A stretch of 59,862 nucleotides of DNA. Origin: an uncultured Pelagibacteraceae bacterium (GTDB taxonomy: Bacteria > Pseudomonadota > Alphaproteobacteria > Pelagibacterales > Pelagibacteraceae). The stretch lies in assembly GCA_902578115.1 (NCBI GenBank), contig CACHBR010000002.1:1-59862 (forward strand), in the 5' to 3' direction. Shown here one piece after another: positions 44,236-52,679 of this stretch. The position numbers were made by a program, and so were the translations under genes. The notes under the pieces are model-generated. The model did not search any database. It was given only the letters and a program-made list of their open reading frames with translations, and was not told where the DNA came from. Every line of letters starts with the position of its first letter. The stretch's first letter is position 1.

Positions 44236-45915
44236 ATGGAAATAAAAAAACTAAATAGTTTAGTTGAACTATATTTTGAAAAATTAAATGAAATAGATAA
44301 GGACAAACCTTTTTTAAAGTGGTTAAAGCCTAATAAGACAACATATACTTGGTCACAGGTTTCTGAGAGAATTTTTAAATTAACCAATAAAATTAAATCA
44401 ATTATAAAAGATGGCGATAGATGTTTAATACTTTCTGAAAACCGTCCCTATTGGTTAATGTCAGATATAGCCGTCATGAATGCGGGAGGGATATCAGTGC
44501 CAATATTTACTACCTACTCTTCAAATGATTATAAATATATTCTTAATGACTGTAAACCAACAGTAATAATTGTATCAAATAATGATCAGTTTAAAAAAAT
44601 TAAAAATTTTATAAATCCCGAGGTAAAGGAGATTATTTCTTTTGAAGATATAGAGCATAAAAATTTATCAATTACTCAAATTTTAAAATCTGATGATAAT
44701 AAACAAGTTATAAATAAAAGTTTAAAAAGACATATGCCTGCATGTATAATTTATACATCTGGTACATCTGGAAATCCGAAAGGTGTTGTACTGAGTCATG
44801 GAGGTATTTTAGCAAACTGTGAGGGCGCGCTAGATTTACTCGATCCTTTAATTAAAAAAAAGAGCCCAGTATTTCTCACATGGCTACCACTTTCGCATTC
44901 TTATGAACATGCCGTTCAGTTCATTCAAATTTTGACTGGAGCAAAAGTTTTCTATGCAGAAAGTTTAGAAAAACTTCTATCAAATATGTCTGTAGCAAAA
45001 CCAACAATAATGACTGCTGTTCCAAGATTTTATCAGAACTTATACAATAAAATTAACAATAATTTAAAAAAACAAAAAGGTTTTAAAAAATATCTAATAA
45101 ATAAAACTATTGATTTAGGTATTAAATCTCTTAAAAAACAAAATCTTAAAATTCACGAAAAACTACTTAATTTTATTTGTCAGATTTTGGTAAGAAAAAA
45201 AATTCAAAAACAATTTGGCGGGAATCTTCAAACTTTTGTATCTGGAGGAGGAGCTCTTGATAAAAATATAGGTGAGTTTTTAAATGCAGTTGGATTACCA
45301 ACTTTACAAGGCTATGGCCTCACAGAAACTTCTCCAGTTGTAAGTTGTAATTTGCCGGGCAATATTAAAGTCGAAACGGTTGGACCCCCCTTTAAAACTA
45401 ATAAAGTTAAAATTGCCCAAGATGGGGAAATTCTTGTAAAGGGAGAAAATGTTATGCTGGGTTATTGGAACAAAGAAAAAGAAACTAATGAAACTATTAA
45501 AAATGGATGGCTTCATACTGGTGATATTGGAGAGTTTGATAATAATGGCTATCTAAAAATTACTGATAGAAAAAAAGACATTATTGTTAATCTTGGTGGA
45601 GATAATATATCTCCAACTAAAGTTGAAAACCATTTTTGTAATCATGAATTAATAAAACAATGTTTAGTTTACGGAGACAAAAAAAATTATCTTGTTGCAT
45701 TAATTGTCGTTGAGTCAAAAGATAAAGATAATTCAACTATAGGAAGTATAATTGAAAATTTAAATAAAGATTTAACTTTAATCGAAAAAATTAAAAAATT
45801 TATTTTAATTGAAGATGAATTTACAATTGAAAATGGTTTAATGACTCCAACTTTAAAGTTAAAAAGAAAAAAAATAATTGAAAAGTATCAACAGGAACTT
45901 GAAAAACTTTATTAA
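44236..45915 (+). CDS. AMP-dependent long-chain acyl-CoA ligase (FadD-like)
   Basis: This 559-residue adenylate-forming enzyme probably activates fatty acids to acyl-CoA. The P-loop-like motif ACIIYTSGTSGNPKGVVLSHGG lies near residue 170. LTWLPLSHSYEH, VSGGGALDKNIGEFL, the A5 motif LQGYGLTETSPVV, and WLHTGDIGEFDNNGYLKITDRKKD follow. The C-terminal lysine is in LMTPTLKLKRKKI. This matches the long-chain group rather than acetyl-CoA synthetase. The start at 44236 fits the family N-terminus, yet it lies only 4 bases after the tRNA CCA end, leaving no room for a Shine-Dalgarno sequence outside the tRNA. Confidence 0.9.
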   Translation: MEIKKLNSLVELYFEKLNEIDKDKPFLKWLKPNKTTYTWSQVSERIFKLTNKIKSIIKDGDRCLILSENRPYWLMSDIAVMNAGGISVPIFTTYSSNDYKYILNDCKPTVIIVSNNDQFKKIKNFINPEVKEIISFEDIEHKNLSITQILKSDDNKQVINKSLKRHMPACIIYTSGTSGNPKGVVLSHGGILANCEGALDLLDPLIKKKSPVFLTWLPLSHSYEHAVQFIQILTGAKVFYAESLEKLLSNMSVAKPTIMTAVPRFYQNLYNKINNNLKKQKGFKKYLINKTIDLGIKSLKKQNLKIHEKLLNFICQILVRKKIQKQFGGNLQTFVSGGGALDKNIGEFLNAVGLPTLQGYGLTETSPVVSCNLPGNIKVETVGPPFKTNKVKIAQDGEILVKGENVMLGYWNKEKETNETIKNGWLHTGDIGEFDNNGYLKITDRKKDIIVNLGGDNISPTKVENHFCNHELIKQCLVYGDKKNYLVALIVVESKDKDNSTIGSIIENLNKDLTLIEKIKKFILIEDEFTIENGLMTPTLKLKRKKIIEKYQQELEKLY

Positions 45916-46036: not shown

Positions 46037-46064
46037 TTGACATCAATAAAGAAAGAAATAAAGT
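46037..46064 (+). promoter_or_regulatory. Putative promoter of the basic-peptide gene
   Basis: A perfect TTGACA (46037-46042) is followed by 16 bases and TAAAGT (46059-46064; four of six). Upstream, about 100 bases consist almost wholly of A/T runs, which could act as an UP element or bent DNA. This fills most of the 199-base gap after the acyl-CoA ligase. The remaining gap contains no other ORF I can support. Confidence 0.45.
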
Positions 46065-46114
46065 TTAAATAACAAACGAATCATTAAGATTTGTTTTAAA
46101 AAAAGGGAGATATA

Positions 46115-46186
46115 ATGGCTAAAAGACGTAAAAAAGCTAAAAAGAAAAAAAAGAAGGCTAAAAAAAGAAGAAGAAGAAGAAGATAA
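46115..46186 (+). CDS. 23-residue polybasic peptide
   Basis: An ATG at 46115 with a strong GGGAG ribosome-binding site five bases upstream opens a 23-codon frame. The product begins MAKRRKKA, continues with lysine runs broken by a second Ala, and ends in six arginines. Apart from Met and three Ala it is entirely Lys and Arg, so it should bind RNA or DNA tightly. A good promoter precedes it and a 14-bp-stem terminator follows within 14 bases, so it looks like a dedicated transcription unit rather than chance sequence. Possible roles are a ribosome-bound peptide or a nucleoid peptide; neither is shown. It is unlike bTHX or other small ribosomal proteins I know. Confidence 0.75.
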   Translation: MAKRRKKAKKKKKKAKKRRRRRR

Positions 46187-46199
46187 ATAGTTTTCTACT

Positions 46200-46238
46200 A
46201 AAACGCCCTTTCCAAATCTCACGGAAAGGGCGTTTTTT
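46200..46238. terminator. Bidirectional intrinsic terminator
   Basis: AAAACGCCCTTTCC (46200-46213) pairs perfectly with GGAAAGGGCGTTTT (46223-46236) around a 9-base loop, with six T residues at 46233-46238. It ends the polybasic-peptide transcript and, from the other strand, the carD operon; the carD stop codon begins within the T-run. It is one of only three clear terminators in the window. Confidence 0.92.
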
Positions 46239-46887
46239 ATTGTTCCATCTCTACAATTTGATTTCTTCCCAAGGCTTTATCCATCTTCTTTTTCGTGTCC
46301 TCGGCTGATATTTTAAGAACTGCCTCAAACTCACTTTGCAATCTATCATAAGCTTGTTCAAAAAGTTGTCGCTCACTATAAGATTGATCAGCAATGGTAT
46401 TTGATGTCTTGTTTAAATCCTTCACAACTTCTGCAAGTTCGTATATTTTTCCAGAATTTATTTTTTGCTCATATTCTTGTGCTCTTCTACTCCACATAGT
46501 TCTTTTAATTTTCGGTTTTGTTTTTAAAATTGAAACACATTTATTTATCTGATTTATCGAGGATATTGGTCTTAAATGGCTTTGCTGATTAATAGGTATT
46601 GTTAAAGTTAATTTATCACGCTCAATTAATATTTTATAAAAATTTATCCCTATATCTCCAATGGTAGCTTTTTCTACTGCAGTAATTTTACCAACACCAT
46701 GTTTCGGATAAACAACGTAATCGTTAATATTATACTGTTTTTTTTCAGTAGGTTGTTTTTTAATCTTTTTAATTTCTATTTTTTGATCAGCAATATTTAT
46801 TTTTTTTGGCGCGACTACTTTTTTAAGATCTTTAGATTTTTCTAATTTCTGTTTTATTTTTTTTTTCTTTTTAATTTTTTTCGGCAC
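46237..46887 (-). CDS. carD: CarD/CdnL-family RNA polymerase-binding regulator
   Basis: CarD-type proteins bind the RNA polymerase beta subunit and stabilise open complexes at promoters. The 216 residues consist of a very basic N-terminal extension (about 1-50, mostly Lys and Ile) and then the RNAP-interaction Tudor-like fold (YNINDYVVYPKHGVGKITAVE and following). A helical DNA-binding domain comes after it (RTMWSRRAQEYEQKINSG and SYSERQLFEQAYDRL). Usual CarD proteins are about 160-170 residues, so the extension is the odd part. It follows fdxA by 2 bases and ends in the shared terminator. Confidence 0.92.
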   Translation of the reverse strand: MPKKIKKKKKIKQKLEKSKDLKKVVAPKKINIADQKIEIKKIKKQPTEKKQYNINDYVVYPKHGVGKITAVEKATIGDIGINFYKILIERDKLTLTIPINQQSHLRPISSINQINKCVSILKTKPKIKRTMWSRRAQEYEQKINSGKIYELAEVVKDLNKTSNTIADQSYSERQLFEQAYDRLQSEFEAVLKISAEDTKKKMDKALGRNQIVEMEQ

Positions 46888-46889
46888 AA

Positions 46890-47231
46890 TTACTCCCCTG
46901 GTTTCTCTGAAAAATACTTGTCCAATTTATTTCTAACATTTTTGAACTTATCAGCATCCTTTGGAGGATCCTTTTTCACAGAAATGTTTGGCCATAATTT
47001 AGAATATTTTTCATTTATCTCAAGCCATTTCTGTTTGTCATCTTTTTCATAACTTGTGTCAGAAACTATTGCATCTACTGGACATTCTGGTTCACAAACT
47101 CCACAATCAATACATTCTTCCGGACTGATTACAAGCATATTTTCCCCCTCATAAAAACAATCTACTGGGCATACCTCTACACAGTCCATTAGTTTACATT
47201 TAATACATTCATCTTTTACTATGTAAGTCAT
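46890..47231 (-). CDS. fdxA: Seven-iron ferredoxin FdxA
   Basis: This small electron carrier has Cys at 9, 12, 17, 21, 25, 40, 43, 46 and 50 in [19 protein letters not shown] and [17 protein letters not shown]. The pattern matches 7Fe ([3Fe-4S][4Fe-4S]) ferredoxins of alphaproteobacteria. The C-terminal half ([15 protein letters not shown]) is the usual extension. At 113 residues the length is normal. Its start overlaps the upstream TerB-like gene as ATGA. The fdxA-carD pair is conserved in the class. Confidence 0.95.
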
Positions 47232-52645: not shown

Positions 52646-52679
52646 AAAAAGGCCCAATATTTATTGGGCCTTTTTTTTT
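52646..52679 (+). terminator. Intrinsic terminator between TRAP receptor and permease genes
   Basis: GGCCCAA (52651-52657) pairs with TTGGGCC (52664-52670), with additional AT pairing in the loop, followed by nine T residues. It lies 25 bases after the receptor stop and 23 bases before the permease start, and should let only part of the transcripts continue into the permease gene. Confidence 0.88.

Follow-up and report, generated by a model that had tools for sequence, protein, structure and literature searches.

What does a SAR11 cell gain from a stand-alone gene of 23 codons whose product is almost entirely lysine and arginine? The gene lies in the window (the whole stretch of DNA that we analysed, 59,862 nucleotides) of a Pelagibacteraceae genome of ~0.96 Mb (G000), in the gap between a gene for a FadD-like long-chain acyl-CoA ligase and carD. 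Its product, MAKRRKKAKKKKKKAKKRRRRRR, consists of Met, three Ala and otherwise exclusively Lys and Arg, with six Arg at the C-terminal end. A sequence-only reading had proposed a self-contained transcription unit at this position, and the parts that it named (a TTGACA box, an AT-rich flank, a GGGAG ribosome-binding site and the Lys/Arg frame) are all present when the DNA is read directly. The 14-bp-stem terminator that it described is also there, except that the stem begins 13 nt past the stop codon of the peptide gene and not 14, a trivial difference. Folding added a feature absent from that reading, a 5′-UTR hairpin that is probably located at the 5′ end of the transcript. Promoter, 5′-end hairpin, ribosome-binding site, frame and terminator thus form a compact cassette, and the peptide gene has a transcription unit of its own, convergent with carD, whose stop codon is overlapped by the T run of the terminator (Table 1). 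Folding of the whole unit is more favourable than that of 200 shuffled versions (z -3.84). Its frame is the sole ATG frame in the window with 15–60 codons and a Lys plus Arg content (K+R) of at least 60%, and 60 first-order Markov randomisations of the window yielded 0 frames with a K+R of at least 75%.

Table 1. Parts of the peptide transcription unit and its neighbours, in window coordinates.
Feature	Position	Strand	Comment
−35 box TTGACA	46037..46042	+	read directly; AT-rich flank
Possible −10 box TAAAGT	46059..46064	+	16-nt spacer; weak match in scan, conservation not strict; exact −10 uncertain
5′-UTR hairpin AAACGAATC-ATTAA-GATTTGTTT	46074..46096	+	9-bp; from folding
Ribosome-binding site GGGAG	46105..46109	+	5 nt ahead of ATG at 46115
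Peptide ORF, 23 codons	46115..46186	+	TAA stop at 46184-46186
Intrinsic terminator	46200..46238	+	14-bp stem (46200-46213 / 46223-46236), 9-nt loop, T run
Long-chain acyl-CoA ligase (FadD-like)	44236..45915	+	upstream neighbour, same strand as peptide gene
carD	46237..46887	-	convergent neighbour; Lys-rich N-terminal tail
fdxA ferredoxin	46890..47231	-	next in carD operon

Pooling all sources (Pelagibacterales and two outgroup genomes) gave at least 120 distinct units, and a handful beyond these were also read. DNA searches matched the whole unit in 20 of 30 genomes of the same genus, as well as in many further Pelagibacteraceae genera. Wherever a Pelagibacteraceae locus is assembled across the FadD/carD gap, the gap contains an intact K/R frame. 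Its length is 21–24 residues in the first 31 loci, 22–24 in the window's genus and its sister genus, and 19–58 family-wide. The frame is therefore kept at the same locus, as the sequence-only reading had anticipated, and the frame-disrupting indels that we looked for in the Lys/Arg run of relatives were not seen. Throughout Pelagibacterales carD is the constant neighbour of the peptide gene; the FadD-like upstream neighbour is common to the other Pelagibacteraceae loci checked and is absent from the sister family, f2. Relatives without the peptide are also without carD and, with one exception, without a true fdxA, such that the whole block is missing, which in incomplete genomes is probably assembly loss. 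Five genomes of 90–98% completeness (G026, G046, G086, G102 and G116) have no peptide, no carD and no true fdxA, reflecting either real loss in a sublineage or a shared assembly gap.

Where checked, the gene is single copy: no second copies were found within genomes, and BLAST matches elsewhere proved to be the acetyl-CoA synthetase gene. On one contig (L067; G057:C6:2500-9624) the peptide-carD block occurs twice, as identical copies in inverted orientation; chimerism during amplification or an assembly error is the likeliest cause. Searches of viral contigs returned one and 24 pattern matches, none of which was the unit, and no phage copy was found. Among other Alphaproteobacteria, no carD-adjacent homologue was present within 1.5 kb at 28 loci, and none that was convincing within about 8 kb of carD at 20 further loci. 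Pattern matches in other f2 genomes were rejected on account of their unrelated start, MAKQQK.

The pattern of change within the frame indicates that it is selected as a protein-coding sequence. In codon-region alignments from two genera, 12 of 12 distinct gaps in the ORF are multiples of three, compared to 4 of 29 for gaps in the UTRs on either side (Fisher p 2.3e-7; this value, like the codon statistics that follow, derives from related sequences that are not independent samples and is strong but not exact). Slippage on AGA repeats would by itself also yield triplet multiples for some indels. Synonymous-biased substitution, which the sequence-only reading had put forward as a check, is apparent at codons 4 and 5, where Arg is retained through exchange of the synonyms AGA, CGT and CGA by changes that need two substitutions. 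Lys codons in the peptide genes are AAG in 27% of cases, as against 13% in the long ORFs of the window and 14% in the ribosomal-protein cluster, and AGG is absent among 657 Arg codons. On average the longest A-run measures 7.3; random placement at the same AAG content would give 9.5, and the AAG content of the genome 10.6. The codon usage is not a plain copy of that of the ribosomal-protein genes, which are without the GCT, AAG and AGG pattern; a straightforward codon signature of high expression was accordingly rejected, and the high expression suggested by the sequence-only reading is no more than possible. Open frames, triplet gaps, synonymous Arg changes and A-run-breaking codons support the proposal of a selected, translated gene; on this comparative evidence the unit reads as a real protein-coding gene, and the peptide is very probably translated.

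The same observations bear on two rival explanations. According to one, the functional product is a structured small RNA, and the K/R frame is incidental or merely loads ribosomes. The 5′ hairpin and the terminator are indeed conserved, the latter with compensatory changes at 6 of its 14 pairs across relatives, but the middle of the transcript is an unstructured purine run whose length changes in triplets only and whose codons change synonymously, with Lys codons that break up A-runs, all marks of a selected frame. Relatives, moreover, hold a frame of 76–99 codons between the same two hairpins, and an Rfam scan of the window identified tRNA-Leu only, with no match to the unit. We consider a small RNA very improbable. 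According to the other, the frame has a regulatory task: as a leader peptide or nascent-chain sensor, it would control the expression of a neighbour through poly-Arg/Lys stalling. Runs of Lys and Arg codons slow ribosomes, and a terminator follows the frame, as such a leader would have it. The downstream gene, however, is carD, which is convergent and shares the terminator region from the opposite strand, leaving a leader peptide with no same-strand target. The long A-runs that would favour stalling or slippage are avoided, and in f2 the frame reaches 99 codons. This makes a leader peptide most improbable.

Conservation extends to the flanks of the frame. The 5′ hairpin occurs in all units, and it persists in genera in which the register of the stem is shifted by several bases (g5, g7/g9 and g12). 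The motif CGAATC is found in 118 of 120 distinct units, in f1 and f2 alike, and TTGAC starts 39–42 nt upstream of it in all 118 units having both. The GAATC within the hairpin is a GANTC site. GcrA is encoded in 14 of 14 genomes tested and a single N6/N4 methyltransferase gene of CcrM-like length in 13 of the 14, the exception having only a degraded weak match; in the source genome the loci listed for GcrA and the CcrM-like methyltransferase are G000:C13:3959-4390 and G000:C20:1392-2051. GANTC is depleted in the window (99 observed, 163.5 expected), as would be expected if GANTC were methylated. Yet the site has A as its N in every case and is part of a longer motif, CGAATCA, so that a role in the RNA or in initiation fits it at least as well. 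A published analysis inferred that few conserved orthologues in Pelagibacter are likely to be GcrA targets (PMC7987155), an inference that could not cover an unannotated gene such as this one. We note that the GcrA family scores above cut-off in an archaeal control genome, Sulfolobus acidocaldarius, which is odd for an alphaproteobacterial family.

Two further structural observations concern this cassette and the window. In deeper lineages (g7/g9 and g12; L055, L061, L066 and L282-L286) the leader carries CUCC opposite GGGAG or GGAG, and f2 leaders (L132-L140) show a CCC...GGGG pairing that adjoins the start; these candidate ribosome-binding-site switches are absent from the window's genus. 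Such pairings may represent translational control that was lost in the short forms. Elsewhere, the right third of the window contains a symmetric hairpin of 13 bp at 52646-52675 (AAAAAGGCCCAATA/TATTGGGCCTTTTT) that resembles a terminator, was scored on both strands and ranks among the strongest there.

Longer relatives at the same locus suggest where the peptide came from. In f2, which belongs to the same order, the same cassette (TTGAC, CGAATC hairpin, GGGG or GGAG ribosome-binding site and GC-rich terminator) lies just 3′ of carD, convergent with it and oriented as in the window, and encodes clear histone H1-like proteins of 76–99 aa, such as MEELKVIFAKARKKAKKKAAPKKK... and MEELKVIFAKARKKAKKKAAPKKKRKAAKRKPAKKK.... 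Within Pelagibacteraceae, genus g12 has PAKK-rich forms of 34–58 aa. Two genomes of the outgroup family f32 encode an H1-like protein of 124 or 144 codons (MAVKKKKAAKKKAAPKKK...) at the other end of the carD operon, divergent from a helicase gene (helicase - 144-aa gene - fdxA - carD), with a TTGAC box and a 5′ hairpin and without CGAATC. In a tree of carD and fdxA rooted on f32, the f2 clade has products of 76–99 aa (support 0.987), Pelagibacteraceae have 19–58 aa (0.989) and the window's subclade has 20–24 aa (0.983), so that length along the tree runs 124–144, 76–99, 19–58 aa. Composition shifts alongside: the K+R fraction is 0.56 in f32, 0.59 in f2, 0.64 in g12, 0.72 in g3, 0.80 in g4 and 0.83 in g1, and over the same series Ala plus Pro (A+P) drops from 0.38 to 0.11, and net charge, +76 at the start, ends at +19.

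Because sequences of such low complexity (a K/R/A 23-mer against an 85-mer) cannot prove homology by their residues alone, we argue descent from locus, orientation and shared cassette. On this basis the case for shared descent with the f2 form is strong, and we hold it highly likely that the peptide descends from an H1-like protein. Orthology of the f32 gene is suggestive, and weaker because that gene occupies the opposite operon end and has no CGAATC. A class-wide protein search with the f2 form yielded mostly chance Lys/Ala-rich tails, and only the matches in G202 and G489 held, by locus. The N-terminal tail of CarD itself is 57–128 aa long with 32–43% K+R across Pelagibacterales and f32 (L132, L133, L171 and L172); like the peptide, it shortens between f2, where it is at its longest, and the window's genus, where it is at its shortest. 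In four other Alphaproteobacteria checked it measures 14–51 aa with 7–29% K+R.

How closely does the peptide resemble known H1-like proteins of bacteria? Chlamydial Hc2 (HctB), Bordetella BpH1 and the tails of Pseudomonas AlgP and PhaF are Lys-rich, nearly free of acidic residues and disordered, as is the peptide line, and their kind varies in length through in-frame gain and loss of basic repeats, as documented for Hc2 (PMC2848022), which is a further likeness to the line studied here (PMC2848022, PMC9239181). The f2 and f32 relatives are of the Hc2/BpH1/AlgP type (K+R 56–59%, A+P 32–38%), and with g12 included a Lys/Ala/Pro-rich composition with hardly any acidic residues still holds (K+R 56–64%, A+P 28–38%). 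The window peptide shares the charge of this group but not its Ala/Pro content (A+P 11% in its genus). It differs also in its size of only 23 residues, in having three Ala but no Pro, in lacking both a repeat unit and a folded partner domain, in the 83% K+R of its genus, in an Arg share of 41% among basic residues and in being encoded by one gene that is linked to carD. Basic repeats in tandem (KKAAPKK, KPAA, pentamers) are found in f2 and f32 and are absent from the 23-mer; by sequence the peptide is thus no member of the group, and we regard it only as probably descended from H1-like proteins.

Animal sperm protamines are very short, highly charged proteins without a fold and with an Arg-rich end, and they arose from H1-like proteins by shortening and Arg enrichment. 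The window peptide is like them in shortness, charge, Arg-rich end and lack of fold; it differs in being bacterial, in its constitutive locus, in belonging to a growing cell with HU/IHF, in having no Cys and in its majority of Lys. The likeness would be convergent at best.

What, then, might the peptide do? We think it fairly probable that it is a disordered polycation that binds nucleic acid, most likely a nucleoid peptide, descended from an H1-like protein. The nature of the longer relatives at the same locus strengthens the nucleic-acid-binding part of this reading. The common ancestor of Pelagibacterales would have had an H1-like, Lys/Ala/Pro-rich protein in the same cassette next to carD; the most streamlined lineages would then have lost the N-terminal segment and the KKAAPKK repeats, leaving a remainder with denser charge (83% K+R, net about +19) and more Arg. 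Met-Ala starts usually lose their Met, and the mature peptide would therefore have 22 residues and a charge of about +19. Once translated, it would be stable and would bind nucleic acid by charge, acting mainly on the chromosome, by compaction or charge neutralisation, rather than on RNA or the ribosome. These genomes have 2–3 HU/IHF-family genes each, and the peptide would thus work alongside HU/IHF and not as a replacement for HU. Precedents exist in that bacterial H1-like proteins rich in Lys, Ala and Pro bind DNA; in Chlamydia, Hc1 and Hc2 compact the nucleoid and act as transcriptional repressors (PMC2848022).

The choice of target is the least secure part of the nucleoid reading. Poly-cations bind any polyanion, so that the sequence favours no one target among DNA, rRNA, mRNA and polyphosphate, and we put the chromosome as main target at slightly better than even. 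The main rival reading places the target in RNA or the ribosome: the same gene with the same ancestry would bind rRNA or the ribosome, or serve as an RNA chaperone, in the manner of a small accessory ribosomal protein. The short, ribosome-associated basic proteins bTHX and Sra (bS22) resemble the peptide in size and charge, and the peptide's extreme basicity and freedom from acidic residues would suit such a role, as would the presence of an RNA-helicase-like gene and carD among its neighbours; the chlamydial protein Hc2 binds RNA with high affinity and acts as a translational repressor (PMC2848022). Against this, a PDB sequence search, which covered many ribosomes and has low power for a 23-mer because short low-complexity queries rarely score, found no chain that matches. 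The peptide has no aromatic or fixed motif, unlike bTHX and Sra, and its line spans a fivefold range of length within one order (19–99 aa), which is not what one expects of a ribosomal protein that fills a defined pocket; H1-like ancestry, too, favours DNA first. We consider an RNA target possible but rather unlikely. It is highly unlikely, by analogy with AlgP, that the peptide titrates polyphosphate or other intracellular polyanions: the KPAA tail of that H1-like protein of Pseudomonas binds DNA, organises polyphosphate granules and is required for AlgP to locate to them (PMC9239181), but nothing at the peptide locus is linked to polyphosphate.

A bolder form of the nucleoid reading, which we regard as doubtful, is that this is the shortest chromosomal protein known from bacteria, H1-like by origin, which was reduced along with the genome to a protamine-like polycation of 19–25 residues and compacts the nucleoid in the smallest of free-living cells, and that the near-invariant GAATC (GANTC) just inside the transcript may let CcrM methylation and GcrA time its expression to replication.

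We found no description of the peptide gene in the non-subscription literature, and a survey of SAR11 RNAs (PMC2704228) makes no mention of carD or a Lys-rich peptide. Pfam and NCBIfam searches with short and long forms gave nothing above chance, curated H1-like models being few and low-complexity queries scoring badly. Trypsin, the usual enzyme of proteomics, would shred a Lys/Arg peptide, which may explain the lack of proteomics reports. The gene would represent an H1-like line cut to protamine-like size, and the natural series from 124–144 through 76–99 to 19–58 residues shows how much of an H1-like protein can be dispensed with. Few cells on Earth are as numerous as those of SAR11, whose genomes are very small and streamlined; a 23-codon gene that has survived order-wide streamlining in its own regulated unit is very likely important to them, and it bears on how DNA is packed in a tiny cell.
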